63,257 bases of DNA from Gammaproteobacteria bacterium (GTDB taxonomy: Bacteria > Pseudomonadota > Gammaproteobacteria > UBA6429 > Thiohalophilaceae), in NCBI GenBank assembly GCA_022712915.1, contig JAFLJQ010000019.1:1-63257 (forward strand), read 5' to 3'. A program made the translations under genes and the position numbers. This document shows positions 30,645 to 56,715 of the stretch, in pieces. Every line of letters starts with the position of its first letter. The first letter of the stretch is position 1. The notes beneath the pieces are model-generated. The model had not been told where the DNA came from, searched no databases, and saw only the letters and a program-made list of their open reading frames with translations.

Positions 30645-31115
30645 ATTGTTACACTAACCCACTCTACATGATTAGAGAAAGATTCATTCACCATTCCAAA
30701 TTTAGTTGACCACAACAGATATCCCATAGACGTAATGTTTCAATATACCTAAGGGCTTGTGCCTTGGGTAGTTCGGTGAAGACATAGCGTATGACAACCC
30801 CACTCACGAGCACAATATTACAAGAATGTGGGGCTATTGGACTGTGAACTTGTGCATAACACTAATGACTTATTTAAGCGCCAAAAAACACTCGTAATTT
30901 TCTATAATAACATATAAATCAATATGTTATAAAGTATTATATTGAAAGGGTCTCATAGATTCTGCTGAAGAGTTAGAAACAATAACCTAGTATTTACAAG
31001 GCATATATTGTTGATATACTATACGGTGGCACAGTGCTAAATAACAACTATGCATTTACTCATTAACCGATTAAGTATCTCCCTGAGACAATATATTGAG
31101 GCATAAGGGTCATTG
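30645..31115. other. AT-rich promoter region upstream of the NRPS-PKS
   Basis: The 470-bp gap has no credible gene. It marks the shift to AT-rich DNA. It holds a 9-bp inverted repeat (30907-30930, listed separately) and several TATA-like hexamers near 30935 and 31015 without clear -35 partners. The NRPS-PKS start must be served from here. Confidence 0.45.
30907..30930. promoter_or_regulatory. Candidate operator: 9-bp inverted repeat
   Basis: ATAACATAT (30907-30915) and ATATGTTAT (30922-30930) are exact reverse complements with a 6-nt spacer, about 185 bp before the NRPS-PKS start. The size suits a dimeric repressor or activator. No regulator gene sits next to the cluster. Role inferred. Confidence 0.45.
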
Positions 31116-34100
31116 ATGGTTGATTCATACGACAATACTAATATACAAAATCACTGGAATGACACATTTGTGGATTATCCATTGGATAATTCACTGGTTT
31201 GGCATATTGAAAAACAGGTTTCAAAGACGCCTCACTTAACAGCGGTTATATCCGCTGATAAATCCCTCAACTACGAACAGTTGAATGAAAAAGCAAACCA
31301 ACTAGCCCATTATCTCATTGAATCAGGCATTAAAACGGATTCACTAGTGGGTCTATGTGTCGATCGCTCAATTGAAATGGTGATTGCGCTTCTGGGAATC
31401 CTCAAGGCAGGGGCCGCATATGTTCCCTTTGATCCAGAATATCCACAGAATCGACTTGATTTCATGGTTGAGGACTCAAGTATTTCAGTCCTTCTGAGTG
31501 AAAACAAACTCAAAAATAAATTTCCTGATCAGAAAATAAAGATCACCTGTCTGGATACAGATTGGGACGACATTGAAAAATGTAGTGTCACTAATCCTAA
31601 TTGTCCGATTAAGCCCGAAAACCTGGCATATATGATCTACACATCAGGATCAACGGGTAAACCAAAAGGAACCATGCTCTCTCATCGAGCCATCGTCAAT
31701 CGCCTTTTATGGATGCAAGATGAATATCATCTAACAGAGAATGACCGTGTGTTACAGAAAACACCGATGAGTTTTGATGTGTCGGTGTGGGAATTCTTTT
31801 GGCCTCTAATAACGGGGGCGCAGCTCGTTATGACACAGGCCGGTGGTCATCGAGATCCCGCCTATTTAGTTAATACGGTTATTGATAAAGAGATCACAAC
31901 GTTACATTTTGTACCGTCCATGCTGAATATATTTTTAACGGCATCCGGTCTTGAGAAAATCACGTCCCTCAGGCAGGTTTTCTGTAGTGGAGAAGCATTA
32001 CCATCTGAATTAGTTAAACGATTTTTTACAAAGTCAGATGCCCGATTACATAATTTATACGGTCCAACCGAAGCTGCTGTTGATGTTAGCTACTGGGAAT
32101 GCAAAAAAGACTCCGCTGAAAGTATTGTCCCCATCGGCAAGCCCATTGCTAATATTCAATTACATATATTAGATGAAAAACTTCAACCTGTTGCCATTGG
32201 CGAATCAGGAGAACTGCATATTGGTGGTGTCGGTCTGGCACGCGGTTATTTAAACCGAGAAGAACTAACCGCAGAAAAATTTATAGATAACCCATTCAAG
32301 GATAATACAAAATTATATAAAACCGGCGATTTGGCACGTTTTCTGCCTGATGGCAATATCGAATATCTTGGCCGAATTGATTTTCAGGTGAAAATTAGAG
32401 GCTTGAGAATAGAGCTTGGAGAAATAGAAAGCACCATTCTCAAACATGACGCCGTCTTAATGGCAACCGTTGTTGCTAGTGAAGAAGAATTGGGTGAAAA
32501 AAGGCTGCTTGCCTATCTGGTAGTGAATACCGACAAGCCACTTTCTATTAATGAATTAAGACACTTGTTAGGAAAAGAACTTCCGGAATATATGGTTCCA
32601 GCTGCCTTTATTTTTCTGGATGAAATGCCATTGACCCCAAATGGTAAAGTCGATAGAAACGCCCTTCCGAAAGAAAAATTAAAAAGACCTGAACTTGACC
32701 AAGTATACATCACACCTAAAACAAAAATAGAAAAAGTACTCTGTGAGATCTGGGAGGAATTACTTACCCTGGATCGTGTTGGTATTAACGATAATTTCTT
32801 TGATCTTGGTGGTAACTCATTATTAGCACTCATGAGCATCGTGCAGTTGGAAGAGCAAGAAAATATTGAGATACCTATGATCAGAATGTTTCAATATCCA
32901 TCGGTTCGCTCTCTCACATCAAGCCTTGAAGATAATAACAATGAACAGACAGAGATCGATAAAACGATAAACAGAATAAAGAAACAGCGTGAGTCGAAAG
33001 AAGACAATATTTATGCACAGGGTGGTGTTGCGATTATCGGCATGAGCGGTCGGTTTCCCGGCGCGTACGATGTCGATGAGTTGTGGTCAAATTTATGTAA
33101 TGGTCTTGAAACTGTCACCTTCTTTTCAAAAGAAGAATTGGGTCCCGGGCTTGATCCTGAAATAACCAATAACCCAAATTATGTTTTTGCCCGAGGCATT
33201 ATTCCGGATGGTGATAAGTTTGATGCCGCTTTTTTTGGTATTAATCCATCTGAAGCAAAAACGATGGATCCACAACAGCGCGTTTTTCTTGAGCTGGCGT
33301 GGGGCGCATTAGAAAATAGTGGTTACACATCTGAGTATTTTGATGGCCTTATCGGTGTGTATGCCGGTATGGGAAATAACTACTACTACCCCCTTAATGT
33401 CGATGGACATACCGATCTGGTCAAGATGGTGGGCCAATTTCCCATTATGATTGGAAATGAAAAAGATCACCTTGCAACGCGTGTTGCGAATAAACTGAAT
33501 TTAACAGGGCCGGCTGTCAGCGTACATACTGCATGCTCAACGGCTTTGACGGCTGTTGATAATGCATTTTTTAGTTTAATAACCCGACAATGTGATATGG
33601 CATTGGCCGGAGGCATTTCTTTGCAGACACCACAATATAGTGGGCAGTTATATGAGGATGGTGGTGTTTTTGCTATAGATGGCCATTGTCGTCCCTTTGA
33701 TGCAGATACAACAGGCACCATGTTTAGTGACAGTGCCGGCATTATTGTCATGAAAAGGCTGGATGACGCACTTCGAGATAACGATACCATTTACGCCGTC
33801 ATCAAGAGCACAGCACTAAATAATGATGGCTCTGAAAAGATCAGCTACCTTGCACCAAGCATCAACGGTCAAAAACAAGTGATTGCCATGGCCCTGGCAA
33901 GAGCAGGAATAGATGCAGGATCAATATCCTATATAGAAGCACATGGTACAGGCACCCCTATTGGTGACCCAATAGAAGTAGAAGCATTAACTCAGATATA
34001 TCGCCGCTATACTGATAAAAATCAGTTCTGTGGTATTGGCTCTATTAAAAGTAATTTGGGACACCCGACTATAGCCGCAGGGGTTACAGGTGTTATTAAG

Positions 34101-37100
34101 GTAGCGCTCTCACTAAAAAATGAAAAAATCCCAGCAACCATACATTATAAAAATCCAAATCCAAAAATTGATTTTGAACATAGCCCATTTTATGTCGTCG
34201 ATAAATTAACAGCCTGGCCAAAAGGTGAGGAAAAAAGACGAGGCGCAGTAAGCGCTTTCGGATTCGGCGGAACCAATGGCCATACCATTCTGGAAGAGGC
34301 ACCCGATACTAAGGAATCAGATCCATCTCGTTCTACTCAACTCATCGTATTATCCGCAAAAAATAAAGACGCGCTAGATATGATGACGAAAAATTTGGCC
34401 GATTATCTGGAAATTAATAACGACACCAATATTGCAGATGTGGCATTTACTTTACAAAATGGTAGAGTCTCTTTTAATCATCGTCGCTTTATAGTCTGCA
34501 AAAACAACGATGATGCAATAACTAATTTAAGAACGCTTAACCCACAATTTTCAAGCACACGATTAGTTGAAACAAAAAGTCCTGAAATAGTCTTTCTATT
34601 TCCAGGTCAGGGGTCACAGTATCTTAATATGGGTCGTGATTTATATGATTCTGAACCCTGTTTTAAAGAAGTTGTCGATTATTGTTCAGAGTTGCTTAAC
34701 ACTCATATTGGATGTGACTTGCGTGATATTTTATACCCAACAACAGATGATATTGAACAAGCCACAGAGACACTTAAAAATACTTATTATCAACAACCCG
34801 CCATCTTTGTCATTGAATATGCATTAGCTAAATTATGGGCATCTTGGGGCGTTACCCCAGACATTATGGTTGGCCATAGCATTGGGGAATTTGTCTGTGC
34901 TACCTTATCAGGCGTCTTTAAACTAGAGGATACGTTAGGGTTAATTGCCGCGCGTGGTCGCTTGATGAGTTCATTGCCAACAGGTTCAATGCTTTCTGTA
35001 CGACTCCCCGCAGAGGTCATTGAACAAAGACTGATGTCTGGATTATCCCTGGCGACATCAAATGGGCCTTCTCTTTGTGTTGTTGCAGGGCCAGATGACA
35101 TTATTGAGGAATTTCAAAAAGAACTTGAAAAAGAAGATATAGCCTGCACCCTCCTTCACACCTCACATGCCTTCCACTCAGAAATGATGGAACCCGCTGT
35201 TGCACCTTTTACGGAACTGGTCAGTAAGGTTGAACGCACTTCTCCTGTCATACCTTTTATATCCACCCTAACGAATAAATGGGTGACACAAAATGAAATT
35301 ACTGACCCAGCATATTGGGGTAAACATTTGCGCTCACCGGTCAGGTTTGCAGAAGCGATAGGAAAGATATGGGAGGAACCCGAACGAATTTTACTTGAGG
35401 TGGGCCCGAGAGCAGTCACGTCAACATTAGCACGACAACAGGCTAAGGATCTAAAAAAACAGATCGCAATCGCATCATTATCTGATAATGCAGATAATAA
35501 TATGGAACAGTTCTCAATGTTGAAAGCACTTGGAAGCTTATGGCTCGCAGGTGTTGATATCAATAGAGAAAAATTTTGGGCCAACGAAAAAAGAAGGCGA
35601 ATTACGCTTCCTACCTATCCATTTGCAAGAAAACGAGTTTGGCTTGACCCCGTTGCAGGTTTAAATAAATTTGATAAAAGCAACACACAACCTGTAGAAA
35701 CCGAACTGTCTGCTGAAGTTTTAGATGTAATACAACATACATCAGGCACAGTGGAATATAAACAGAAAACAGCAAAGGATCAGCTAATTGAAATACTGGA
35801 AGAGATATCCGGCATTGAGTTTGGAGAAGACCTTGACGTAACAAGAACCTTTGCTGAAATGGGGCTAGATTCATTATTCTTGACACAGATAGCCTTTAAA
35901 CTGAAAAGCGATTTCAATCTTGAGGTCAGTTTCAGACAGTTAACAAATGATTATTCAACTATTGAAAGACTGTCGCAATATATACAGGAAGAAATATCTG
36001 AACTCACAGATAAATCATCTGACAATAGCATTGTCGAAGAAAGTTCAGATTCAGAGCTCTCTTTGACACACGACTCAGATGTGAATTCAGTACAATCTAC
36101 CAGTTTTCAAAAAGAAATATTTGAACTCATCCAACAAGATGGAGATAGTGCTTCATGTTCATTTAATGAATCAATCACCATTACATTAAAGGGGAATGAA
36201 TTCAATCAAGAAAAAATGCGTGAGGCATTACATGAGTTAGTTAAACGTCATGAGGCATTGCGCTATACCTTCTCACATGATGGAAAGTATCTGATTCCAC
36301 ATAAAAATGTCAATATCAACATTTCAGTTGAAGACATATCTCTTATTTCCGACAAACTAATTAATGAAAAAATCACTGACATATTAAAACAGGATTTCTG
36401 CAAGCCTTTTAATCTTGAAAGTGGCCCACTATTTCGATCGACCATTATAAAAGTCGATGAAAACATACATAAAGTTATTATCACTTCACACCTTGCAGTT
36501 TGTGATGGCTGGTCTCTTGATGTGCTTGTTCGTGACCTAGGAATAATATATTCATCTAGTGTTATGGACATGGACGCTAAGTTAAATTTAGATATTGCCG
36601 ACAAATTTAGTGACTACTTACTCGGGACAACGACATTTGAGAAAACGGACGCCTACAAACAAATGCGTTCCTTCTGGAAGAAAAAACTCGCGACGCCTAT
36701 ATCATGCCTTGATTACCCGATAAAACAGGATTTACCTGCACAAAGAAGTTATAACGGTTCCAGGTGTGATTTATCGATAGACAAACCCACTGTACGTGCC
36801 CTGAAGTCATTATCATCTCGTATTGGATGCAGTTATTTTACAATACTTTTAGCGGGTTATAAGTTACTTTTATTAGGCTTAACACAACAAAAACGTTTAG
36901 TTGTAGGAATGCCTGTTGCCGGTCAAGCTATAGTCAACAAAAAATTTCTAGTGGGGAATTGCCTTAACTACATCCCACTGGTCAGTGAAGTTAGTCCTCA
37001 GCAAAGCGTTGAAGAATTCATAGGTACACTAAAATCCACAATATTAGATGCCATTGAAAATGGTAAATATTCATTTAATGAAATAACGGATCAACCACTC

Positions 37101-38297
37101 AAGTCAGTACATCCGGCTCGCGTTCCATTTATCCAAACATGCCTTAACATGAGTCCAAAAATGGAGGGCAATCAACTTTCTTATGCAAATCTTGAAGTTG
37201 AATATGATGTGAACCCGCGATATTTTGAGAGCTTTGAGATTTTCATTAATGCTGTTACAGAAAAAGATGATGTATTATTATTTGAGTTCCAATATAATTC
37301 TAACTTATTTTCTGAAAACACCATCAGAACCTGGCAAACTATATTACATGATATTTTAAGAGATCTAGATAACAGATCTGATTTTGAAATATCAAACTTT
37401 CTTAATAAATACTTTTTTGAAAACAAACGAGAACACACGCAAAAAAATAGCACTTTAAACGAAAACTCATCATCCGACTTACAACAGCCGGGAGACGCTT
37501 CATTTTATTTTAGCGAGGCATCTGACTTATATGGCATTTGTAATATCCCAAAGACTAAGCAACTTAATACAGGCGTTATTTTTTGTTACCCATTAGCCCA
37601 GGAATATATACTCTCTCACTGGTCATTCCGACTACTGGCAAAATCTTTACTGGCAGAAGGTTTTCCCGTATTGAAATTTGACTATTTTGGTACAGGAGAT
37701 TCACTTGGCGATACAAATGATTGGAATCTGGATAGATGGATATTAGATATTCAAGCAGCCGCGAATGAGCTTAAATTAAGGTCCGGGGTTGAAAATATTT
37801 CTGTTGTAACCCTGCGCTTTGGCTCAATATTAGCAGCCTCTGCCATTGAGAAAGGTTTAAAGGTTGATAGGCTTATATTATGGGAGCCTGTATTTTCTGG
37901 TGCTGAGTATTTATCTGGGCTAAAAAATATGCAGAATGATTTCCTTAAATCAGTCAAAAACAATTACCCATATCCTGACGACAAAGATTTAGAAGTGCAT
38001 CCAGATGAAATATTAGGTTTTATTTTTGAAAAAAATCTCCAGAAAGATATTGTAAGCAGTCAATTAAGGAATTTTTCATTCACTAACTGCAAAAATGTAG
38101 ATTTTGTTTGCACAAATAACCTTAACAAATATAACAATCTTATTGCTGCGTCAAAAACTAAAATGAATAATGTAAAATTACATAAAACAAATGACAGTAC
38201 ATCCTGGGATGATCACACACAGTTTGATATTGCAATCCTTCCTAGTAATACCATAGTTAAAATCACCGCATTGTTAAAAGGATTGAACGATGAGTGA
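31116..38297 (+). CDS. Hybrid NRPS-PKS: A(Ser)-T-KS-AT(malonyl)-ACP-C-hydrolase-like
   Basis: A 2393-residue megasynthase. Adenylation domain 30-515 (YTSGSTGKPKG 175-185) has the pocket D-V-W-H-F-S-L-V-D, which matches the serine code of EntF. PCP about 530-600 (Ser568). KS about 636-1060 (Cys807 in TACSTAL, His943, His983). AT about 1155-1440 (Ser1255 in GHSIGE; HAFH 1351-1354, the malonyl type). ACP about 1545-1625 (Ser1586). C domain about 1670-2100 (SHLAVCDG, catalytic His1792). A hydrolase-like domain covers 2150-2393 (FDYFGTGDS; RFGS at the elbow instead of GxSxG). No KR, DH, ER or standard thioesterase is present. There is no upstream C domain, so seryl-PCP acts as starter. Expected product: a short Ser-malonyl beta-keto unit passed to an unknown acceptor. 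Confidence 0.93.
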   Translation: MVDSYDNTNIQNHWNDTFVDYPLDNSLVWHIEKQVSKTPHLTAVISADKSLNYEQLNEKANQLAHYLIESGIKTDSLVGLCVDRSIEMVIALLGILKAGAAYVPFDPEYPQNRLDFMVEDSSISVLLSENKLKNKFPDQKIKITCLDTDWDDIEKCSVTNPNCPIKPENLAYMIYTSGSTGKPKGTMLSHRAIVNRLLWMQDEYHLTENDRVLQKTPMSFDVSVWEFFWPLITGAQLVMTQAGGHRDPAYLVNTVIDKEITTLHFVPSMLNIFLTASGLEKITSLRQVFCSGEALPSELVKRFFTKSDARLHNLYGPTEAAVDVSYWECKKDSAESIVPIGKPIANIQLHILDEKLQPVAIGESGELHIGGVGLARGYLNREELTAEKFIDNPFKDNTKLYKTGDLARFLPDGNIEYLGRIDFQVKIRGLRIELGEIESTILKHDAVLMATVVASEEELGEKRLLAYLVVNTDKPLSINELRHLLGKELPEYMVPAAFIFLDEMPLTPNGKVDRNALPKEKLKRPELDQVYITPKTKIEKVLCEIWEELLTLDRVGINDNFFDLGGNSLLALMSIVQLEEQENIEIPMIRMFQYPSVRSLTSSLEDNNNEQTEIDKTINRIKKQRESKEDNIYAQGGVAIIGMSGRFPGAYDVDELWSNLCNGLETVTFFSKEELGPGLDPEITNNPNYVFARGIIPDGDKFDAAFFGINPSEAKTMDPQQRVFLELAWGALENSGYTSEYFDGLIGVYAGMGNNYYYPLNVDGHTDLVKMVGQFPIMIGNEKDHLATRVANKLNLTGPAVSVHTACSTALTAVDNAFFSLITRQCDMALAGGISLQTPQYSGQLYEDGGVFAIDGHCRPFDADTTGTMFSDSAGIIVMKRLDDALRDNDTIYAVIKSTALNNDGSEKISYLAPSINGQKQVIAMALARAGIDAGSISYIEAHGTGTPIGDPIEVEALTQIYRRYTDKNQFCGIGSIKSNLGHPTIAAGVTGVIKVALSLKNEKIPATIHYKNPNPKIDFEHSPFYVVDKLTAWPKGEEKRRGAVSAFGFGGTNGHTILEEAPDTKESDPSRSTQLIVLSAKNKDALDMMTKNLADYLEINNDTNIADVAFTLQNGRVSFNHRRFIVCKNNDDAITNLRTLNPQFSSTRLVETKSPEIVFLFPGQGSQYLNMGRDLYDSEPCFKEVVDYCSELLNTHIGCDLRDILYPTTDDIEQATETLKNTYYQQPAIFVIEYALAKLWASWGVTPDIMVGHSIGEFVCATLSGVFKLEDTLGLIAARGRLMSSLPTGSMLSVRLPAEVIEQRLMSGLSLATSNGPSLCVVAGPDDIIEEFQKELEKEDIACTLLHTSHAFHSEMMEPAVAPFTELVSKVERTSPVIPFISTLTNKWVTQNEITDPAYWGKHLRSPVRFAEAIGKIWEEPERILLEVGPRAVTSTLARQQAKDLKKQIAIASLSDNADNNMEQFSMLKALGSLWLAGVDINREKFWANEKRRRITLPTYPFARKRVWLDPVAGLNKFDKSNTQPVETELSAEVLDVIQHTSGTVEYKQKTAKDQLIEILEEISGIEFGEDLDVTRTFAEMGLDSLFLTQIAFKLKSDFNLEVSFRQLTNDYSTIERLSQYIQEEISELTDKSSDNSIVEESSDSELSLTHDSDVNSVQSTSFQKEIFELIQQDGDSASCSFNESITITLKGNEFNQEKMREALHELVKRHEALRYTFSHDGKYLIPHKNVNINISVEDISLISDKLINEKITDILKQDFCKPFNLESGPLFRSTIIKVDENIHKVIITSHLAVCDGWSLDVLVRDLGIIYSSSVMDMDAKLNLDIADKFSDYLLGTTTFEKTDAYKQMRSFWKKKLATPISCLDYPIKQDLPAQRSYNGSRCDLSIDKPTVRALKSLSSRIGCSYFTILLAGYKLLLLGLTQQKRLVVGMPVAGQAIVNKKFLVGNCLNYIPLVSEVSPQQSVEEFIGTLKSTILDAIENGKYSFNEITDQPLKSVHPARVPFIQTCLNMSPKMEGNQLSYANLEVEYDVNPRYFESFEIFINAVTEKDDVLLFEFQYNSNLFSENTIRTWQTILHDILRDLDNRSDFEISNFLNKYFFENKREHTQKNSTLNENSSSDLQQPGDASFYFSEASDLYGICNIPKTKQLNTGVIFCYPLAQEYILSHWSFRLLAKSLLAEGFPVLKFDYFGTGDSLGDTNDWNLDRWILDIQAAANELKLRSGVENISVVTLRFGSILAASAIEKGLKVDRLILWEPVFSGAEYLSGLKNMQNDFLKSVKNNYPYPDDKDLEVHPDEILGFIFEKNLQKDIVSSQLRNFSFTNCKNVDFVCTNNLNKYNNLIAASKTKMNNVKLHKTNDSTSWDDHTQFDIAILPSNTIVKITALLKGLNDE

Positions 38298-39111
38298 GAA
38301 AGCTATATCTTTCGGATTCAATAATGGTTTTATGGGTGTTATATCTGAGCCAGAAGGAAATGCAATTATAGATGCACCCATTATGATTATTTTAAATACC
38401 GGGATAGGACATAAAGCGGGCGGCTCATTTAGAATCTCAGTAGATATCGCGAGATCCGTACAAAAAGAAGGATTTACTTGCTTAAGATTTGACCTGTCAG
38501 GACTGGGTGACAGTAAAATGCGAATCAGCAATGGGAAAGAGGATTTGCCGGTTACCGATGTAATAATCGCAATGGATTACCTCTGTGAAAAATATGGCAC
38601 ATCAAAATTTGTTCTGATGGGACTTTGTTCTGGATCCGATAATTCACATAGAACAGCAGTAGCTGATGACCGTGTTATTGGTACAATCAATCTTGATGGT
38701 TACGGCTATCGTAATAATAAATATTATATAAATCATTATGGAAAAAGATTGTCGTCATTAAAATATATAAATCAAAAACTAAAAAATAAGCTCAGAAAAA
38801 AAGAAAACGTTAAGATTGAATCAAACCAAGCTGACGCGTATGTTAGAAAATTTCCCCCTTTTGAACAGTCACGCACAGAATTTTCTGCTTTATCCCATCG
38901 AAATGTTAAAATGCTATATATGTTCACAGGTGGTGTAGGTGATTATTACAACTATAAAAATCAATTCCGTGACGTTTTTAACATGGTCGATTTTAAAAAT
39001 AATCTTGAGTTAGAATATTATATACATGCCAATCACAGTTTTTCATGGGTTTACAGTAGACAGAGAATAGTCAATAAAATCCTTAATTGGATGGTTCTTC
39101 AATTTAAATAA
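38290..39111 (+). CDS. Alpha/beta hydrolase with Cys-containing nucleophile elbow
   Basis: A 273-residue hydrolase-fold protein. LRFDLSGLGDS is the oxyanion strand region and GLCSGSDN the elbow, placing Cys at the usual Ser position (GxCxG). The last ~35 residues hold the expected C-terminal His region (HANHSFSWV). It is related to hydrolases associated with exosortase or NRPS loci. It overlaps the megasynthase by 8 nt, so the two are translated together; it may release or transfer the assembled acyl chain. The Cys nucleophile suggests acyltransfer as much as hydrolysis. Confidence 0.72.
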   Translation: MSEKAISFGFNNGFMGVISEPEGNAIIDAPIMIILNTGIGHKAGGSFRISVDIARSVQKEGFTCLRFDLSGLGDSKMRISNGKEDLPVTDVIIAMDYLCEKYGTSKFVLMGLCSGSDNSHRTAVADDRVIGTINLDGYGYRNNKYYINHYGKRLSSLKYINQKLKNKLRKKENVKIESNQADAYVRKFPPFEQSRTEFSALSHRNVKMLYMFTGGVGDYYNYKNQFRDVFNMVDFKNNLELEYYIHANHSFSWVYSRQRIVNKILNWMVLQFK

Positions 39112-39120
39112 TTGCTATAC

Positions 39121-40161
39121 ATGAAACACAAAACAAACATAAAAAACAAAAAATGGATTTTATTAAATTTTAGCAATTTGCTTGTTTTTATATTTCTTTC
39201 AACGACAGGCATACTCCTGTACGCAACCCCATACAATTCATTCATATCAGGCATTCATATTTGGCTAGCTATTTGTTTTGTTTTAGTCATTATGTTTCAT
39301 ATAAAATCACACGCTGAAAGCATCATTACCTATTTTAAAACAAAAACAGCAAAATGGGTCATCACATCGTGTCTAATTTTTATTGTAATACTATCCACCA
39401 GCATTTATTACAGGCTAACGCCACTGTCAACAGTTTTAAATTTTAGCGATAAACTAAAAAGAACGGTAACTATAGAAGAAGGTGAATATCAAGTTATCCG
39501 AACAAAAAAAAATATAAATGAGAAAAAAATAACCATAGATGTAAAAGCAGGAAAATATTACCGAGACCATTCAGTTCCGTTTTTTTTCGGCCTAAGTACA
39601 ACAAGCACACCACAAATGGCATTTTGGTTAGAAGATATGAATGGAAATCTCATTAAAACTTTATACACGACAAGAAAAACATCATACCCAGCAATATATT
39701 CAGATTCCTCATCTCGAAGTGACACGATACAACGCCCAGAGGCTTTGCCCTATTGGATTCATAAGAAACAGAGTGTTAATAAAAAAACCTCTATAGTGCT
39801 CGACGCCATATCAGGAGCAACCCCTCATGGACATTATGAAATACAGTCCTCTTTTCCTAACAGCTTGCACAGATTCAAACTATTGGCAGAGGTTAATCGT
39901 TCATTTGATTTTAATAATTATTATACAAAAGAAAAATATCCAGACGATCTAGTATATAGTGGCGATGGATATCCAGGGCAGCCTTCTGTAATTTATGCTG
40001 CGGAAATTAATCTTGAGTCAAACACTAATGTGTATGTAATGAAACCTATTGGACATGGGCATTATTCTGGTGCTGATGGAAAACTCTACCAGGATATGGT
40101 TGGTATCGACACAGCTCTTCAGATTATTCAAAGAATAATAGTTGAAGTTAATGAGCCGTAA
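39121..40161 (+). CDS. Membrane protein with periplasmic DUF2271-like domain
   Basis: A 346-residue protein with three N-terminal hydrophobic segments (about 12-35, 41-60 and 76-95; two His in the second region, FHIKSHAES). A roughly 240-residue periplasmic part follows, containing QMAFWLEDMNGNLIKTLY, similar to DUF2271 proteins. Near the end are DAISGATPHG and DGYPGQPSVIYAAEI. The ATG at 39121 is preferred to TTG at 39112. No clear Shine-Dalgarno sequence. It follows the alpha/beta hydrolase by 9 nt. His residues in the membrane part could bind heme, but this is uncertain. A link to the NRPS-PKS product is suggested only by operon position. Confidence 0.62.
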   Translation: MKHKTNIKNKKWILLNFSNLLVFIFLSTTGILLYATPYNSFISGIHIWLAICFVLVIMFHIKSHAESIITYFKTKTAKWVITSCLIFIVILSTSIYYRLTPLSTVLNFSDKLKRTVTIEEGEYQVIRTKKNINEKKITIDVKAGKYYRDHSVPFFFGLSTTSTPQMAFWLEDMNGNLIKTLYTTRKTSYPAIYSDSSSRSDTIQRPEALPYWIHKKQSVNKKTSIVLDAISGATPHGHYEIQSSFPNSLHRFKLLAEVNRSFDFNNYYTKEKYPDDLVYSGDGYPGQPSVIYAAEINLESNTNVYVMKPIGHGHYSGADGKLYQDMVGIDTALQIIQRIIVEVNEP

Positions 40162-43077: not shown

Positions 43078-43620
43078 TTACAACCAATATTCTGGGTAGT
43101 GTCGGCCTTTTGCCAGATTATTCACGACCAAAGCAACCATCAGCATAATAATCGCCCCCAAACCAATGGGGATGATAACGTAGAGATAACCTAAATGATG
43201 AATAGAATCTCCACCTATAATGGCAATTAATGCCGTTGCTCCACCCGGTGGGTGTAATGTGCGAGTAAGATGCATCAAACCAACTGAAAAACCAACAGCA
43301 AAAGCCGCAGCAAATACCAGTTGCTCCGGAAACAGAAAATATAAACTTACACCGGTCATCGCTGATATCACATGGCCACCAATAAGATTACGCGGCTGGG
43401 CAAAAGGACTCAGAGGAATACCATATAGCAACACAGCAGAGGCACCAAAGGACCCCACTAAAAACAAACTACTTTCCAATTGCAAACCTTGAATTTGCCC
43501 TATCAAATAAATGGCTGCAATACCCAAAACACTACCGATAGTTGACCAAATAATTTCTGATACCGGCGCACGTGGTGGACAGCGTTTTCCACCTTTCATT
43601 TTATTAAAGAACGAATTCAT
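43078..43620 (-). CDS. HPP-family integral membrane protein
   Basis: A 180-residue protein with four to five TM segments and the HPP signature LTRTLHPPGGATALIAIIGG. The N-terminus (MKGGKRCPPRAP) is cytoplasmic and basic. In cyanobacteria and plants HPP proteins act in nitrite transport; the role here is unknown. It follows the 106-residue protein by 44 nt on the same strand, after the terminator of the Cas6-like cluster. Confidence 0.88.
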   Translation of the reverse strand: MNSFFNKMKGGKRCPPRAPVSEIIWSTIGSVLGIAAIYLIGQIQGLQLESSLFLVGSFGASAVLLYGIPLSPFAQPRNLIGGHVISAMTGVSLYFLFPEQLVFAAAFAVGFSVGLMHLTRTLHPPGGATALIAIIGGDSIHHLGYLYVIIPIGLGAIIMLMVALVVNNLAKGRHYPEYWL

Positions 43621-43664
43621 GCATAATCCATTTATTGATAATTAATCGATGTGCCGATAGGTCA

Positions 43665-43985
43665 TCAAATTTCCAATTCCGTAGCCGTTATATCACCTTC
43701 CATATCAATATAAATAATTTTCACATCGGGTATTTTATAGAGGATATAACCGGCCATCATCAACTTCATTTTTTCATTTTCATTTTCTATCGCAGTTAAC
43801 AATTTATCAGCCACAACCTGACAACGCTGGACATCACTCAGTTTATCAACCCAGATCCGACTCATCTGCCAGCCCTGTTCCATATCCTTATCCATTTTTG
43901 TAAACAAATCTATTGCATCCGAGATCAAAAATTCAGGAACATCAATTTGCACCGGTTGTTCACCTATGACCACATTTAATATCAT
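43665..43985 (-). CDS. Small conserved-looking protein next to HPP
   Basis: A 106-residue soluble protein (MILNVVIGEQPVQIDVPEFL, MEQGWQMSRIWVDKLSD, CQVVADKLLTAIENENEKMK, PDVKIIYIDMEGDI). The start at 43985 has AAAGGA 8 nt upstream, better than the upstream in-frame Met at 44042. Strand/helix alternation suggests a small alpha/beta fold. I do not recognize a family. It lies between the terminator at 44094-44119 and the HPP gene, forming a two-gene unit. Confidence 0.65.
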   Translation of the reverse strand: MILNVVIGEQPVQIDVPEFLISDAIDLFTKMDKDMEQGWQMSRIWVDKLSDVQRCQVVADKLLTAIENENEKMKLMMAGYILYKIPDVKIIYIDMEGDITATELEI

Positions 43986-44093
43986 CAAACGATCCTTTAA
44001 ATTGCAAATAAATATGCCGACATCTGGTTCATATAACGTCATACACGGTAAACTATGCCATCATCAAAATTATAGTCCAGTGATTTCCGACAT

Positions 44094-44119
44094 AAAAAAA
44101 CCCGCATGAAACGCGGGTT
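44094..44119 (-). terminator. Rho-independent terminator (minus strand) ending the Cas6-like cluster
   Basis: On the minus strand AACCCGC pairs with GCGGGTT around 7 nt and runs into T7. It follows the 71-residue protein gene by about 29 nt. Confidence 0.88.
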
Positions 44120-44147
44120 ATTAATATAGATCTAATATATATCAATA

Positions 44148-44363
44148 TTACATATTACGCTGTGAGCCCTTTTCAGCGTGAGCCATATCAATAACTTTCG
44201 TGGCCAATTCAGCATATTTCTGACGATATTCATTCAACGGATGGCTGGCACCGGCGTTATCGGTAAAATATTCAACCGCTTCAACACCATTTTTCTGCTC
44301 ATATTCAATAAATTTTTTCTGCATTTTCAGCATTTCCTGGATCAACTTCTGTTTATCACTCAT
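44148..44363 (-). CDS. 71-residue helical protein in the Cas6-like cluster
   Basis: A charged, mostly helical miniprotein: MSDKQKLIQEMLKMQKKFIE, EYFTDNAGASHPLNEYRQKY, ATKVIDMAHAEKGSQ. AGAGG lies upstream of the ATG and a terminator follows it, so the gene looks real. It is downstream of the broken DsrC-like gene and probably shares its promoter. I cannot name the family. Confidence 0.72.
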   Translation of the reverse strand: MSDKQKLIQEMLKMQKKFIEYEQKNGVEAVEYFTDNAGASHPLNEYRQKYAELATKVIDMAHAEKGSQRNM

Positions 44364-44473
44364 GATAATATGCCTCTGTAAGTACTTGATTTTACTAATT
44401 TCAATAGAGAGATTTCAAATTCATTAGTTAAAATATAGCACATCAATCTAAACGTCCCTATATCCATTTTGGC

Positions 44474-44812
44474 TTAGTAACCACCTTTACGCATACTTTC
44501 TGGTAGCCCTGCAATGCGACCTCCTTGTTTGCTTAGGTTACCCGGAAACAGATCGTACATAGATTTGGAATCAATCTTCTCACCCCACAGCTTTCCCATG
44601 TCTTTCAAAATAGCTCGGTTATTAGGCTGATTGGCATTGTTGTTAATATATTCATCACGCAGGTATTTAATAAAACCCTAGTGACGTTCCGTTAAATCAA
44701 CACCTTCTTCAGTAGCAATAACTTTGGCGACATCTTCATTCCAGTCTTCAAGGTTAATCAGAAAACCGGTTCCCGTTGTTTCGATAGTATTACCATTAAC
44801 TTCAATTAACAT
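44474..44812 (-). pseudogene. DsrC/TusE-family paralogue with in-frame TAG at a conserved Trp
   Basis: A 112-codon frame aligning end to end with the intact DsrC at 50821: MLIEVNGNTIETTGTGFLIN against MGIEVNGKVFETDEEGYLSN. Codon 45 is TAG (minus strand, 44680-44678) exactly where DsrC has Trp45 (SESHW against TERH-stop). The frame then continues without further damage (GFIKYLRDEYINNN, MYDLFPGNLSKQGGRIAGLP) to TAA. The C-terminus ends RKGGY and lacks both redox Cys of DsrC, so it belongs to the cysteine-less DsrC-like proteins. AGAGGAA and a promoter precede it. One-base nonsense mutation, readthrough and sequencing error are all open. Confidence 0.85.
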
Positions 44813-44900
44813 AATTTTTTCCTCTCTTAATCATACGCATACAAAATCGTACAGATTGAAAAAAACAAATACTAAAACAGATCTATCTGAACAAAACTTA

Positions 44901-44910
44901 CCCATATGGG
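44901..44910. promoter_or_regulatory. CCCATATGGG palindrome near the start site
   Basis: A perfect 10-bp palindrome lies immediately downstream of the predicted -10 of the promoter below, where a repressor could act. Binding protein unknown. Confidence 0.4.
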
Positions 44911-44937
44911 ATATATAGGCCATATCCGTTATGTCAA
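44910..44937 (-). promoter_or_regulatory. Sigma70-like promoter for the DsrC-like gene
   Basis: On the minus strand, consensus TTGACA (44937-44932) is followed at 16 nt by TATATC (44915-44910). It lies in the 140-bp gap between the Cas6-like gene and the DsrC-like pseudogene, giving the latter and the 71-residue gene their own promoter. Confidence 0.6.
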
Positions 44938-44952
44938 TTTAATTTGAATTCA

Positions 44953-45639
44953 TCAGGAAACATCCTTCACAGGTTTGATGCCCTTTTGAGGTAAAAATAT
45001 CCCACAACCCAAATGCCGTCCCAACCCAATACCACGTTGTTGTAAACGAATAGAATGAGCCTTATCCAGTTCAGCAACCATCAGACTACGTGTATAAAAA
45101 TCTACGTCAGGTGTTTTGATAACATTCTGTTTGCCGGCCATCATTTTTTTTACTGGGATGTCCATAGCCTGTAATTGCTCCGCAACAATGTTCAGAAATT
45201 GCTCTTCATTCAGTGCAACATCACAAATGACATAACGAGAAAATAATGGTGACAGTTCACTCAAATACTTGATGTCAACATCACCAATAGCCAGGCTGTA
45301 ACCATCGATATCCAAAGTCTGCCCTACCAACTGCTTTGCATCTTCAATACGTTCCTTGGGGACACGTAAACTCATTCGAGTCCGACGCGACAGATGCAAT
45401 ACCTCATTGATCGGATCCTCTGGTCGCATCCAGCCATTACCCGATTCTGCAACGTGTATCTGATGAATCCCAGCCAGCTCTTCTATTTCTATCCAGTCCA
45501 GAACAGACTTAATGGCTTGAGATAAAGCATAGGCATGCTCAATGGGTAACATTTTACAACCGAGTTTAAAAACCAGATCGACCACATCATCCGAGATAAT
45601 AAATTCTTCTTTACTGTTTTTTTCTTCTGTCCAGAACAT
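44953..45639 (-). CDS. Cas6/Cmx6-like (type I-MYXAN Cas6) RAMP protein, no CRISPR array nearby
   Basis: A 228-residue protein with the layout of Cmx6-type Cas6. It has an N-terminal strand DDVVDLVFKLGCKMLPIEHA (with His35), then LSRRTRMSLRVP (83-94) and a C-terminal glycine-rich loop GIGLGRHLGCGIFLPQKG (203-220). Cas6 proteins cut CRISPR precursor RNA. Here there is no array, no cas1/2/3 and no effector gene in the window. It lies 11 nt after a 63-residue protein and downstream of a TauD-like gene, divergent from dsrA. It may process another RNA or have lost catalysis. The family call is by motif memory and should be checked. Confidence 0.72.
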   Translation of the reverse strand: MFWTEEKNSKEEFIISDDVVDLVFKLGCKMLPIEHAYALSQAIKSVLDWIEIEELAGIHQIHVAESGNGWMRPEDPINEVLHLSRRTRMSLRVPKERIEDAKQLVGQTLDIDGYSLAIGDVDIKYLSELSPLFSRYVICDVALNEEQFLNIVAEQLQAMDIPVKKMMAGKQNVIKTPDVDFYTRSLMVAELDKAHSIRLQQRGIGLGRHLGCGIFLPQKGIKPVKDVS

Positions 45640-47229: not shown

Positions 47230-48489
47230 ATGGATAAATCCAAAATTCATTCTACTCCAATGCTCGATGTGCTGGAGGAAGGCCCTTGGCCGAGTTTTGT
47301 TTCTGGTTTCAAACGGATGCGTGATCAGCACCCTAGCCAGACAATCAATGAAATGGCCAACTCGCTGTTGGGGCAATTAGAACATTCTTATGAAACACGT
47401 AAGGGCTACTGGAAAGGTGGCACAGTGTCCGTATTCGGTTATGGCGGCGGTATCATTCCCCGTTTCTCAGAAGTAGGTAAAGCTTTTCCAGAATCAAAAG
47501 AATTCCATACCCTGCGTGTTCAGCCCGCACCGGCCAATTACTATACCACTGACATGCTGAACCAACTGGCAGATAGTTGGGAAAAATACGGCTCAGGCAT
47601 GATCACATTCCATGGTCAAACGGGGAACATCATGTTCATCGGAACGACCACAGAAAATACTCAGCACTTCTTTGATGAAATCAATGAATATGGTTGGGAT
47701 CTTGGTGGTGCCGGTCCATGTGTACGTACGGCCATGTCTTGTGTCGGTGCAGCCCGTTGCGAGCAATCGTGTGCCAACGAACACGCCATACAGCGCCACT
47801 TGGTCAACACCTTTACGGATGACGTTCATCGTCCTGCCCTGCCTTATAAATTCAAGTTCAAAGTTTCAGGTTGCCCAAATGATTGCCAGAACTCTATCGA
47901 GCGATCCGATTTTTCAGTGATTGGTACCTGGCGAGATGAAATAAAGGTCGATCAGGCTGAAGTTAAAGCCTTCATTAAAGCAAAAAGTCGTGACTATGTA
48001 ATTGACAACGTAACATCACGTTGTCCCACTAACTGCATGACTCTGAAAGATGACAACACCCTTGATATAGACAACCATAACTGTGTACGTTGCATGCACT
48101 GCCTGAACGTCATGACCAAGGCCCTGTCACCGGGTGATGACAAAGGTGTAACTATTCTGATTGGCGGAAAACGTACACTGAAAATTGGCGATATGATGGG
48201 CACCGTTGTTGTTCCATTCATAAAGCTGGATACTGCCGAAGATTATGCAAAACTGGTTGGATTGGCCTCTGAAATTATCGATTTCTTTGCTGAAAATGCT
48301 CTAGAACATGAGCGTACTGGTGAAATGATTGAGCGTATTGGCCTGGTTAATTTTTTAGAAGGCGTTGGTGTTGAAGTTGACCCAAATATGATCAGTAGTC
48401 CACGCCAAAGTTCCTACGTACGAATGGATGGTTGGGACGAAGAAGCCGAAAAATGGTTTAATCGCAAAGTCGAACAGGCTGCAGGTTAA
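47230..48489 (+). CDS. dsrA: Dissimilatory sulfite reductase alpha subunit (oxidative type)
   Basis: A 419-residue subunit of the siroheme enzyme that in sulfur oxidizers runs in reverse, turning DsrC-bound sulfur into sulfite. Siroheme-[4Fe-4S] cysteines are at 171, 177, 215 and 219 (CVGAARCEQSC, GCPNDCQN). An inserted ferredoxin domain has CVRCMHCLNVM. The order and partners (reverse-type dsrEFH, dsrL) show oxidative use. AAAGGAG precedes the ATG. First gene of the dsr operon. Confidence 0.97.
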   Translation: MDKSKIHSTPMLDVLEEGPWPSFVSGFKRMRDQHPSQTINEMANSLLGQLEHSYETRKGYWKGGTVSVFGYGGGIIPRFSEVGKAFPESKEFHTLRVQPAPANYYTTDMLNQLADSWEKYGSGMITFHGQTGNIMFIGTTTENTQHFFDEINEYGWDLGGAGPCVRTAMSCVGAARCEQSCANEHAIQRHLVNTFTDDVHRPALPYKFKFKVSGCPNDCQNSIERSDFSVIGTWRDEIKVDQAEVKAFIKAKSRDYVIDNVTSRCPTNCMTLKDDNTLDIDNHNCVRCMHCLNVMTKALSPGDDKGVTILIGGKRTLKIGDMMGTVVVPFIKLDTAEDYAKLVGLASEIIDFFAENALEHERTGEMIERIGLVNFLEGVGVEVDPNMISSPRQSSYVRMDGWDEEAEKWFNRKVEQAAG

Positions 48490-48535
48490 TCACAGGATAT
48501 TAACAAGATAACAAAAATTTAGTTAGGAGATTAAA

Positions 48536-49612
48536 ATGGCACAACCTCAAATGCGTCATCCTATTGAATCTGGCTGCCCAGATGGCTTCCAGTACATGCA
48601 TCCTGTGATGCGCCGTAATTATGGTCAGTGGAAATTCCATGAACATCCCCGTCCTGGTGTTCTGCGTCATGTTGCTAAAAGTGGCGATGAAATCTGGACC
48701 GTAAAGTGTGGAACGCAACGTATTCTTGACGTTTTCACACTGCGTAAGCTGACTGAGATCGGTGACAAATTTGCTGATGGTTTTATTCGTTTCACCATCC
48801 GCAGTAACGTTGAATACATGGTGTCTGGTCAAACCAAAGTTGATGCACTGATCACGGCTCTGGAAGATGCTGGCTTTGTCGTCGGCGGTACGGCTAACTC
48901 TGTTGCCATGATTTCACACACACAGGGTTGGTTGCACTGTGATATCCCAGGTACTGATGCCTCTGGTGTGGTTAAATCAATGATGGATGAATTGATTGAT
49001 GAGTTCAAAAACTGCAACATGCCTAACCGTGTTCATATCACCACTTCATGCTGTCAGATCAACTGTGGTGGACAGGGAGATATCGCCATCAACGTACAAC
49101 ATACTAAACCACCTAAGATCAATCATGATCTGGTCGCCAATGTTTGTGAACGTCCTACTGTTGTGGCCCGCTGTCCCGTTGCAGCCATTCGTCCTGCCAT
49201 GGTTAACGGCAAACCTTCATTGGAAGTTGATGAGAAAAAATGTATCTGTTGTGGTGCCTGTTTCCCACCTTGCCCTCCCATGCAAATCAATGATGCCGAA
49301 GAAACCAAGCTGGCTATCTGGGTAGGGGGTAACCACTCCAATGCCCGTAGTAAACCAAGTTTCCAGAAACTGGTGGCGGCGGGTATACCAAACAACCCAC
49401 CACGTTGGCCAGAAGCAACCGCTATTGTTAAACGCATCCTCAAGGAATACAAAGCAGGTGCAAAAGATTGGGAACGTATTAATGACTGGATTGACCGCAT
49501 TGGCTGGCCCCGTTTCTTTGAAGTTACTGGCCTGCCGTTTACCAAATATCACATTGATAACTGGACGGGTGCGCGCCATAGTTTAAATGCTTCTACGCAT
49601 ATTCGCTTCTAA
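48536..49612 (+). CDS. dsrB: Dissimilatory sulfite reductase beta subunit
   Basis: The 358-residue partner of DsrA. Cluster and siroheme motifs are in TSCCQINCGGQGDIAI, and the ferredoxin insert has CICCGACFPPCPPMQI. It starts 46 nt after dsrA with a TTAGGAG site. The alpha2-beta2 enzyme binds DsrC at its active-site channel. Confidence 0.97.
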   Translation: MAQPQMRHPIESGCPDGFQYMHPVMRRNYGQWKFHEHPRPGVLRHVAKSGDEIWTVKCGTQRILDVFTLRKLTEIGDKFADGFIRFTIRSNVEYMVSGQTKVDALITALEDAGFVVGGTANSVAMISHTQGWLHCDIPGTDASGVVKSMMDELIDEFKNCNMPNRVHITTSCCQINCGGQGDIAINVQHTKPPKINHDLVANVCERPTVVARCPVAAIRPAMVNGKPSLEVDEKKCICCGACFPPCPPMQINDAEETKLAIWVGGNHSNARSKPSFQKLVAAGIPNNPPRWPEATAIVKRILKEYKAGAKDWERINDWIDRIGWPRFFEVTGLPFTKYHIDNWTGARHSLNASTHIRF

Positions 49613-49637
49613 TCTTGAATTATTGTAGGGAGTCGAA

Positions 49638-50030
49638 ATGAAATTTGCTATTCAGGTAAATGAAGGCCCATATAACCATGAAGCCTCCGTGTCGGCCTTG
49701 AATTTCACCAAGGCCGCACTGGAAGCAGGTCATGAGATCTTCCGTGTATTTTTTTATCACGATGGTGTCAATAACGGTACACGCTTCACATCTCCTCCCC
49801 AGGACGATATTAATATAGCCGGTAGCTGGAGTGAGTTAGCTGACCAACATGGTATTGATCTGGTTATATGTGTAGCTGCAGCCCAACGTCGCGGTATCGT
49901 GGATGAAGGGGAACAGGAACGCCAGGGTAAAGACGGCAATAATATCGCTTCAGGCTTTCGTATCTCTGGCCTTGGCCAACTGGTTGAAGCCGGAATTCAG
50001 AGCGAACGCCTGATTGTATTTGGCGATTAA
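49638..50030 (+). CDS. dsrE: Sulfurtransferase subunit DsrE
   Basis: The 130-residue protein carries the catalytic Cys78 (DLVICVAAAQRRG), the same position as the sulfur-carrying Cys of Allochromatium DsrE. It assembles with DsrF and DsrH into a hexamer that passes sulfane sulfur to DsrC. The fold is that of TusD. Operon spacing is tight. Confidence 0.96.
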   Translation: MKFAIQVNEGPYNHEASVSALNFTKAALEAGHEIFRVFFYHDGVNNGTRFTSPPQDDINIAGSWSELADQHGIDLVICVAAAQRRGIVDEGEQERQGKDGNNIASGFRISGLGQLVEAGIQSERLIVFGD

Positions 50031-50043
50031 TCGAGGAAAGCAC

Positions 50044-50451
50044 ATGTCAGATATTAAAAAATTCATGTATGTCAACCGCAAGGCTCCTTACGGTACGATT
50101 TATGCCTGGGAATCTCTGGAGGTTGTCTTGATTGGTGCCGCTTTCGAACAAGACGTAAGCGTGGCATTCGTTGATGATGGCGTCTATCAATTGATTAAAG
50201 GTCAGGACACCACCGAACTAGGCATTAAAAACTTCTCAGCCACCTATAAAGCCCTAGGTGATTATGATGTTAATAAGTTGTATATTGAAAAAGAATCACT
50301 CGATGCCCGTGGTCTGACTCTGGACGACCTTATGCCTTTAACGTATGAGGATGAAAATGACAACTGGGCTGAAAAAAATTCAATTCGTGTTGTCAGTTCA
50401 CAAGAGTTAGCTGAGCTTTTTGAGCATAGCGATGTCTTGTTTAACTTCTAA
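50044..50451 (+). CDS. dsrF: DsrF, subunit of the DsrEFH sulfurtransferase
   Basis: A 135-residue TusC-like protein (KKFMYVNRKAPYGTIYAWES, VAFVDDGVYQLIKGQ). No Cys is visible, so it is structural in the DsrEFH complex. The start is the ATG at 50044 with GAGGAAA upstream; a longer reading into dsrE is unlikely. Confidence 0.95.
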   Translation: MSDIKKFMYVNRKAPYGTIYAWESLEVVLIGAAFEQDVSVAFVDDGVYQLIKGQDTTELGIKNFSATYKALGDYDVNKLYIEKESLDARGLTLDDLMPLTYEDENDNWAEKNSIRVVSSQELAELFEHSDVLFNF

Positions 50452-50470
50452 CGGGATGAGGTAATTTTAA

Positions 50471-50779
50471 ATGTCTATTTTGCATACCGTTAACAAATCA
50501 CCTTTTGATCGCAATTCGCTCGATGCTTGTATTCGTCTTGCGGTAAAAGGCGGCTCTGTCCTGCTAATTGAGGATGGTGTTTATGGTGCTATGAAAGGAA
50601 CAAATAAATCCGACATGGTTACCCATGCGATGAAAGACTTAAGTTTCTACGTATTAGGTCCGGATCTAAAAGCCCGGGGTATAGACGAAGAAAAACTTAT
50701 TGATGGTATTAAAGTCGTTGATTACAGCGGCTTTGTAACCCTCACAGTAGAAAACGATAAGGCCCAGGCCTGGCTCTGA
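50471..50779 (+). CDS. dsrH: DsrH, subunit of the DsrEFH sulfurtransferase
   Basis: The 102-residue TusB-like protein has Cys20 in SLDACIRLA, the residue equivalent to the Cys of A. vinosum DsrH. GGSVLLIEDGVYGAMKG follows. It completes the EFH hexamer. Start 19 nt after dsrF. Confidence 0.96.
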   Translation: MSILHTVNKSPFDRNSLDACIRLAVKGGSVLLIEDGVYGAMKGTNKSDMVTHAMKDLSFYVLGPDLKARGIDEEKLIDGIKVVDYSGFVTLTVENDKAQAWL

Positions 50780-50820
50780 ACTTTACGTTTCTATTTAACC
50801 AGCACTTAGGAGAAAATACC

Positions 50821-51153
50821 ATGGGTATTGAAGTAAATGGCAAGGTTTTTGAAACCGACGAAGAAGGTTATCTTTCTAACCTGAATGAATGGACACCTGA
50901 GGTGGCAACGGCCATGGCAAAGGATGAGGATGTCGATCTAAGCGAAAGCCACTGGCAAGTTATCAATTTTTTGCGCGAATACTATGAAGAGTATCAAATT
51001 GCGCCTGCCGTACGTGTTCTGACCAAGGCCATTGGTAAAAAACTCGGGCCAGATAAGGGCAACAGTAAATATCTATACGAACTGTTTCCGTACGGCCCAG
51101 GTAAACAAGCCTGTAAATATGCAGGCCTACCCAAACCAACGGGCTGTGTATAA
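50821..51153 (+). CDS. dsrC: DsrC sulfur carrier
   Basis: A 110-residue protein with the flexible C-terminal arm and both redox cysteines, Cys98 and penultimate Cys109 (QACKYAGLPKPTGCV). It receives sulfur from DsrEFH and carries it to DsrAB; the trisulfide and disulfide forms are handled by DsrK. Trp45 (SESHW) is intact, in contrast to the paralogue at 44474-44812. TTAGGAG precedes the ATG. Confidence 0.97.
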   Translation: MGIEVNGKVFETDEEGYLSNLNEWTPEVATAMAKDEDVDLSESHWQVINFLREYYEEYQIAPAVRVLTKAIGKKLGPDKGNSKYLYELFPYGPGKQACKYAGLPKPTGCV

Positions 51154-51240
51154 AAAACGGATGTAATAGAGGGGAGTTAGGGTAGCCTTCCCCTCTTCCA
51201 CTTATCATTCAAAATAATTAGATTGAAAAGGATTAGTGGC

Positions 51241-52008
51241 ATGACGGCATTGTCGATATTTTTTGCGCTTTTATTCTATGCTGCGATGGCTGTTTTTGTA
51301 GTAGGTTTAGTGTGCAAAATCATACAGTATTCACGTACCCCTGCCCCCTTAAAAATCCCGACCACACCTGCGCCCGTTACACAGACAGGTGTAGTGTTAC
51401 GTATGGCCAGTGAAGTCATACTCTTTGCCAGTCTTTTCAAATCCAGCAAATGGACCTGGATCTTCGGTTGGATGTTCCATCTGGCCCTGTTACTGGCCTT
51501 CTTTCGCCATCTACGTTATGCCATGACACCAGACAGTATGCTATGGCCTTTGGTCAACCTGAAACTCATTCAGGCCGCTGGCCAATATGGTGCCTATGTC
51601 ATGTTAATAGGCCTGCTCGGTCTGTTTGTCCGTCGTATTTTTGTCGACCGTGTGCGTTATATCTCGGCCCCCTCTGACTACCTGATGCTGATATTAATTT
51701 TAACCATTGCTGGTAGCGGTACGCTTATGTCGTTTGTTGCTCACACAGATATAGTGCAGCTCAAAGCCTTCATACTTGGTTTGATCTATTTCGATTGGCA
51801 GACTCTGCCTGCCGATGGGCTGGTGATAACCCATCTTGGACTGGTTGCCTTATTGATGTTTATTTTCCCCATCAGCAAACTATTGCATGCACCAGGCATG
51901 TTCTTTAGCCCGACACGTAACCAGATCGATAACCCACGCGAGAAACGTCATATTTCTGCCTGGGGCAAAGCTATCGACGATGCTGAAGCAAAAATGACGG
52001 TAGATTGA
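51241..52008 (+). CDS. dsrM: DsrM, membrane cytochrome b subunit of DsrMKJOP
   Basis: A 255-residue NarI-like integral membrane protein with five or six TM segments (first 3-27) and several conserved His (MFHLALLLAFFRHLRY, SFVAHTD, THLGLVAL) suited to two b-type hemes. It exchanges electrons between DsrK and quinone. The start is the ATG at 51241 with AAAGGA at 9 nt, not the TTG at 51223. Confidence 0.95.
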   Translation: MTALSIFFALLFYAAMAVFVVGLVCKIIQYSRTPAPLKIPTTPAPVTQTGVVLRMASEVILFASLFKSSKWTWIFGWMFHLALLLAFFRHLRYAMTPDSMLWPLVNLKLIQAAGQYGAYVMLIGLLGLFVRRIFVDRVRYISAPSDYLMLILILTIAGSGTLMSFVAHTDIVQLKAFILGLIYFDWQTLPADGLVITHLGLVALLMFIFPISKLLHAPGMFFSPTRNQIDNPREKRHISAWGKAIDDAEAKMTVD

Positions 52009-52018
52009 GGATAATAAC

Positions 52019-53524: not shown

Positions 53525-53553
53525 ACCGAATAGTTTAGCTCAGGAGAACTGGC

Positions 53554-55503: not shown

Positions 55504-55524
55504 TCATAAAGTTTGGGGCTACGC

Positions 55525-55938
55525 ATGGTGTTTTTTTGTAAATATATGCACAAACTTGTCACTCTGGCCGGGGTCAGCCTGTTGTTGCCCCTGACAAGCC
55601 AGGCGGTTGATCTTATGCCGGTCATTCCAAAGGCAAAGGGACAGCAATGTGTCGAATCAACGGACAAAATGCGTCGAAATCACATGGAGTACATACTCCA
55701 TCAACGTAACGATACGCTGCGTAAAGGCATCCGCACCCCAAAATACAGTCTTAAAAAATGTATCGAGTGTCACAATGCTCCCGATAAAGATAACAGAGTT
55801 GCCCATATCAGCAGCAAGCAAGACCATTTCTGTAGCAGTTGTCACACCTATGTGGCCGTAAAAATAGACTGCTTTGAATGCCATGCCGACAAACCGAAAA
55901 AGACTCAATACCATCCCACATCCAGAGAGGGCCACTAA
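55525..55938 (+). CDS. dsrJ: DsrJ, periplasmic triheme cytochrome c
   Basis: A 137-residue exported protein with three c-heme sites: CIECH (79-83), CSSCH (103-107) and CFECH (116-120). Cys42 (GQQCVES) corresponds to the unusual His/Cys heme ligand of A. vinosum DsrJ. The N-terminal hydrophobic segment (about 10-27) may stay as an anchor. The ATG at 55525 is used over TTG at 55513. It is part of the DsrMKJOP complex. Confidence 0.95.
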   Translation: MVFFCKYMHKLVTLAGVSLLLPLTSQAVDLMPVIPKAKGQQCVESTDKMRRNHMEYILHQRNDTLRKGIRTPKYSLKKCIECHNAPDKDNRVAHISSKQDHFCSSCHTYVAVKIDCFECHADKPKKTQYHPTSREGH

Positions 55939-56682: not shown

Positions 56683-56715
56683 TACTAAAATGATAAAATC
56701 AGGTTGGCGGAAACG

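Follow-up and report, generated by a model that had tools for sequence, protein, structure and literature searches.

The window, by which we mean the whole 63,257-nucleotide stretch of DNA that was analysed, carries on its plus strand a gene for a 2394-residue megasynthase, a separate α/β-hydrolase (h1) and a putative membrane protein, in that order:

31113–38297, + strand, megasynthase open reading frame, 2394 residues, A-T-KS-AT-ACP-C-h2, likely start ATG at 31116 (Pfam and sequence)
31209–32648, + strand, adenylation (A) domain, pocket code DVWHFSLVDK, serine (Pfam, pocket code)
32736–32918, + strand, carrier (T) domain, GGNS motif (Pfam, sequence)
33027–34148, + strand, ketosynthase (KS), motifs TACST, HGTGT and KSNLGH (Pfam, sequence)
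34590–35522, + strand, acyltransferase (AT), GHSIGE and HAFH, malonyl type (Pfam, sequence)
35778–36017, + strand, acyl carrier domain (ACP), GLDSL motif (Pfam)
36144–37367, + strand, condensation (C) domain, degenerate, TSHLAVCDG at 36483–36509 with Leu for the second His (Pfam, alignments)
37500–38294, + strand, h2, C-terminal α/β-hydrolase domain with Arg in the nucleophile elbow, relative of TIGR03101 hydr2_PEP (profile, fold)
38290–39111, + strand, h1, α/β-hydrolase with a Cys elbow (GLCSG, C113) and H249, relative of TIGR03100 hydr1_PEP (profile, fold)
39112–40161, + strand, putative membrane protein directly after h1, weak DUF4405 and DUF2271 (sub-threshold Pfam)

The megasynthase frame opens with a TTG at 31113, and the in-frame ATG at 31116 is the start given in the original prediction. 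Its Pfam matches run in the order AMP-binding (residues 33–380, with the C-terminal part extending to 512), PP-binding (542–602), N- and C-terminal ketoacyl-synt (639–1012), Acyl_transf_1 (1160–1470), a second PP-binding and Condensation (1678–2085), with E values of 1e-23 or better for all except the short AMP-binding_C. The A, carrier, KS, AT and second carrier domains thus lie in one protein with their active-site motifs intact, as in a type I NRPS–PKS hybrid; conserved columns are retained at 99% in A, 92% in KS, 88% in AT, 82% in ACP and 73% in C. Pfam gave no match to a KR, DH or ER domain or to a thioesterase (TE) in the megasynthase. There is no C domain N-terminal to the A domain; no open remnant of one is present in the 468 bp upstream, and the N-terminus falls within a linker of the C–A type. 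The original prediction had described the A-T-KS-AT-ACP-C-hydrolase order, the lack of an upstream C domain, of any reductive domain and of an ordinary thioesterase, and a Cys-elbow hydrolase downstream, all of which agree with the Pfam matches, with the Arg at the C-terminal elbow and with the G-L-C-S-G motif of the 38290–39111 frame. It had missed that the C-terminal ∼260 residues of the megasynthase are a second α/β-hydrolase, h2.

The substrates proposed originally, a seryl starter and a malonyl extender, are likewise in accord with the motifs. The AT carries HAFH, which we read as malonyl type. The ten-residue code of the A domain, DVWHFSLVDK, is that of the characterised serine domain of Escherichia coli EntF at all ten positions, and Ser domains have been reported with this code (PMC3795760). 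In overall organization the two proteins differ, EntF being an iterating C-A-T-TE protein, whereas the megasynthase is A-T-KS-AT-ACP-C-h2 and has no TE.

The C domain departs from the pattern of an active condensation domain. In place of HHxxxDG it reads S-H-L-A-V-C-D-G (codons CAC CTT), with the first His (H1793) and D1798 kept and the catalytic second His replaced by Leu. Of 79 aligned C domains, 73 have the second His, and the HH pair stands in all seven near homologues whose motifs were inspected singly. A one-residue insertion, considered as an alternative to loss of the second His, was rejected because near homologues reading SSHHLVCDG and TAHHVVCDG align free of gaps. At an 80% conservation cut the domain keeps 63% of the columns (third lowest of 74) and at an 85% cut 73% (ninth lowest of 75), against a median of 93% in each case. 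The Leu codon differs from a His codon by one base and is seen in one copy in a draft genome, and that residue alone may be a sequence error; the other lost C positions and the absence of an A-T module are independent of it and are therefore unaffected. Aligned with eight C-A-T-h2 relatives, the megasynthase passes from C to h2 with the A-T stretch wholly missing. A search of the organism's own genome found no other NRPS-type A domain above the cut-off and no other C domain, which led us to reject a trans-acting A-T or C module encoded elsewhere in it. The original prediction had the chain transferred by the C domain to an unspecified acceptor; this did not hold up and is unlikely, because the catalytic second His has been lost and the A-T module between C and h2 is absent. 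Judged from its motif and conservation, the C domain has probably lost its activity.

The h2 domain (residues ∼2130–2394) matches the NCBIfam profile TIGR03101 (hydr2_PEP) with 96.8 bits against a curated cut-off of 202.75, and its AF2 model (pLDDT 89.5) gives Foldseek matches to esterases and lipases. The nucleophile-elbow position, which is Ser or Cys in a hydrolase, is occupied by R2235, and Arg is found there in 81 of 82 aligned homologues. With this Arg and no Pfam thioesterase, the megasynthase does not end in a TE with a GxSxG nucleophile. The h1 frame overlaps the megasynthase stop by 8 nt, and its product, with the elbow G-L-C-S-G, matches TIGR03100 (hydr1_PEP) with 55.8 bits against a cut-off of 168.45 (NCBIfam); the predicted model (pLDDT 92) has an α/β-hydrolase fold like that of h2, with DcsB among the Foldseek matches. 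The Cys occurs in 86 of 86 and the His in 85 of 85 aligned h1 homologues, although the scan patterns partly selected for the Cys; the six h1 neighbours to which h2 or C matches had led have the Cys as well. An Arg-elbow h2 directly followed by an h1 with Cys elbow and His is thus the arrangement at this locus.

TIGR03100 and TIGR03101 describe hydrolases 1 and 2 of exosortase A loci, and the window pair is homologous to them, with the order h2–h1, the Cys elbow in h1 and the Arg elbow in h2 in common. It differs from them in scoring far under the equivalog cut-offs, in the fusion of h2 to an NRPS–PKS and in its neighbourhood, where Pfam scans of the window frames found no exosortase family beside the cluster; it is accordingly not classed with either equivalog. 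The main text of the exosortase paper (Haft, 2006) does not mention the hydrolases.

To place the pair in a wider context, an h1 alignment was scanned against genome contigs, and the best 80 of 148 confirmed relatives were compared as loci. Their hosts are Gammaproteobacteria, Myxococcota (about ten Corallococcus, which are redundant), Pirellulaceae, Gemmatimonadota, Oligoflexia, KSB1 and others. NRPS/PKS domains lie beside the pair in 67 of these 80 loci (h2 fused in 18, separate in 49), a share that is biased upwards for the h1 family as a whole since the scan was seeded with NRPS-linked h1 sequences, with one exception (G343), and the loci are the best 80 of 148. Nine of the remaining loci have h2 without an NRPS/PKS domain and four have no h2 in reach. 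Domains were assigned by BLAST with the window's own domains, by which TE and other domains may be under-counted; the count of synthetases ending in a carrier and a short tail is independent of that assignment. Among the 42 unfused loci of this set with an upstream NRPS on the same strand, 38 synthetases end in a carrier with a tail of <70 residues and no TE, and h2 lies <300 bp from the NRPS in 38; in all 18 fusions a carrier directly precedes h2. Carrier-ended, TE-less synthetases immediately before h2 indicate that the pair occupies the position of a TE. A natural h2–h1 fusion behind A-T was also seen (L134). The terminal A domains before the pair mostly have the glycine-type code DILQLGxxWK, a DILQ-type code being present in 40 of 48 of them versus 21 of 37 other A domains in the same loci (best 80 of 148). 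The code DILQLGMIWK has been described as glycine-activating (PMC12283262).

Fusion of h2 is therefore not unique to the window, whereas a C domain directly before h2, where the 18 fusions have a carrier, is unique among the loci seen. No other single-piece match to C plus h2 appeared among the matches listed for relatives, class and phylum (∼900 genomes, partly overlapping); the class and phylum searches used strict cut-offs of 1e-20 and 1e-40, at which such arrangements may be missed. The fused C-A-T-h2 of one relative (G228) was found by inspecting its locus. The nearest parallels are uncharacterised Granulosicoccaceae clusters (L087/L065, CALCKW010000024.1; L116, CALDUO010000175.1), which read A-T-KS-AT-ACP, C-A-T-h2 and then a Cys-elbow h1, with h2 fused as in the window. 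They differ in being split over two proteins, in having a second A-T (glycine-type code) and an intact HHxxxDG, both missing from the window, and in a first A domain that is not serine-type. Some relatives that share the front end have a class III aminotransferase after the ACP; L065 has an aminotransferase domain there, and the window has none. In four loci (L029, L075, L096, L109) an insertion splits the A domain of the loading module, the insert in L029 resembling, by eye, a luciferase-like monooxygenase.

No close match to a characterised cluster emerged in what was searched, in keeping with the earlier statement that no characterised product was known with this exact layout. A link to corramycin, the product of a characterised Corallococcus NRPS–PKS, was rejected, the published assembly line being annotated with a TE domain. 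No paper describing the h2/h1 pair as an NRPS off-loader was found in the open-access papers searched, which is not proof that there is none. Distant profile relatives of h1 are DcsB and GrgF (6lzh, E = 1e-7; 7d78, E = 0.0027), which we take to be trans-acting Cys α/β-hydrolases that off-load fungal polyketides. They work in a fungal PKS context and are not known to have a pseudo-hydrolase partner. Cys-based off-loading by these enzymes, together with their distant relationship to h1, makes the chemistry proposed below for h1 plausible.

We consider the chances slightly better than even that the locus encodes a pared-down NRPS–PKS line that is off-loaded by a two-component α/β-hydrolase unit in place of a TE. 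From the genomic association of the pair with TE-less lines we infer that h2/h1 is a dedicated trans-acting release (or transfer) unit. L-Ser would be loaded by the A domain and condensed by the KS with one malonyl unit supplied by the AT, and domain logic suggests that a β-keto aminoacyl thioester would then stay on the ACP, its keto group retained because a KR is absent. The C domain would no longer condense, since its catalytic His and the downstream A-T acceptor module have been lost, and may persist in a structural, bridging role. The pseudo-hydrolase h2, which is fused to the line, could dock the Cys enzyme h1 there, whereupon C113 of h1 would take over the acyl chain and h1 would release it; as the carrier usual before h2 is absent here, h1 could get to the ACP only by spanning the C domain. 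With a free Ser amine, the tetramic acid 5-hydroxymethyl-pyrrolidine-2,4-dione would be the simplest product, although we put this forward as a doubtful suggestion; alternatively, the chain could be hydrolysed and decarboxylated to an amino-ketone, or transferred to a saccharide.

The last of these leads to a different account of the pair, in which h2/h1 acts as an acyltransferase, handing the carrier-bound chain to a sugar, polysaccharide or lipid, and no free product is made. Homologous pairs adjoin polysaccharide genes in Variovorax, and also in related genomes, others lie with ACP and amino acid–[ACP] ligase genes and a GH2-family gene, and the h1 and h2 families take their names from exosortase A loci; since aminoacyl-carrier, glycoside-hydrolase and polysaccharide loci hold relatives of the pair as well, its native reaction could be a transfer. 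Against this, the Pfam-scanned frames of the window include no polysaccharide or glycosyltransferase family, and most Corallococcus and Pirellulaceae loci have no obvious acceptor genes within 10 kb, and we regard the account as unlikely for the window. An active C domain that tolerates the variant motif and joins the chain to a free amine, as in the original proposal and in VibH-like releases by a terminal C domain, would fit its alignment over the full length and the retained H1793 and D1798, but with Leu for the catalytic His and its conservation among the lowest of the domains compared, we find this very improbable.

It is also conceivable that the cluster is decaying, a recent relic that makes nothing after losing the A-T module and the catalytic His. 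The A-T module and several conserved C positions are indeed gone, and the locus is isolated, at a site that is different in a same-genus relative. However, the 2394-residue frame is intact, the A, KS, AT and carrier domains retain their motifs at the conservation given above, and h1 overlaps the synthetase stop and retains its Cys and His; decay therefore seems improbable to us, and release by h2/h1 remains our preferred reading.

More broadly, a Cys hydrolase with an Arg-elbow pseudo-hydrolase may constitute a separate class of NRPS/PKS release (or transfer) system, spread across several phyla and shared with exosortase and aminoacyl-carrier loci, of which the window would be a pared-down form with a lone Ser–malonyl line behind a dead C domain; we place this a little short of even. 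The window would then hold a one-per-genome version that makes a Ser-C2 β-keto product. Off-loading determines whether an assembly line yields an acid, a ring or a conjugate, and, if this proposal is right, many TE-less orphan clusters gain a testable release step and product class, and the pair would link NRPS/PKS lines to its unexplained relatives in exosortase/polysaccharide and aminoacyl-carrier loci. The window system, with one protein plus h1, is small and convenient for reconstitution. Apart from L134, h2–h1 fusions of ∼610 residues or more occur at L004, L005, L032, L060 and L063, several of which adjoin a GH2-family gene. The two plasmid loci among them also carry ACP, acyl-CoA dehydrogenase, amino acid–[ACP] ligase and DUF1839 genes, and the pair would there serve an apparent single-aminoacyl carrier system.

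The membrane protein expected after the hydrolase is present as a putative one, with three hydrophobic N-terminal stretches in a frame adjoining h1, and is not recurrent: no match to it was found in 57 other genomes, the plasmids or the 80 related loci, and it was rejected as a fixed part of the system. The organism's own genome, a draft of 4.24 Mb in 274 contigs, contains a single NRPS-type A domain above the cut-off, a single C domain and a single h1, with two PPTase-family genes elsewhere. Upstream of the cluster, an M61 peptidase gene and a 122-residue gene are conserved in a same-genus genome, and the sequence that follows them differs there, which makes the cluster lineage-specific within what was compared. 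A same-genus genome with no C domain match has an h2/h1 pair of its own (L031, G001:C23, 583–2272), which is not the orthologous cluster. Further along the window lie a Cas6-family gene (PF09559; 44953–45639), with no CRISPR-like repeat array in 43500–45000, and a dissimilatory sulfite reductase island (47230–59397) that comprises two NIR_SIR subunits, DsrM/K-like genes, a DsrL-like pyridine nucleotide oxidoreductase with 4Fe-4S, and NrfD and CbiA-like genes.
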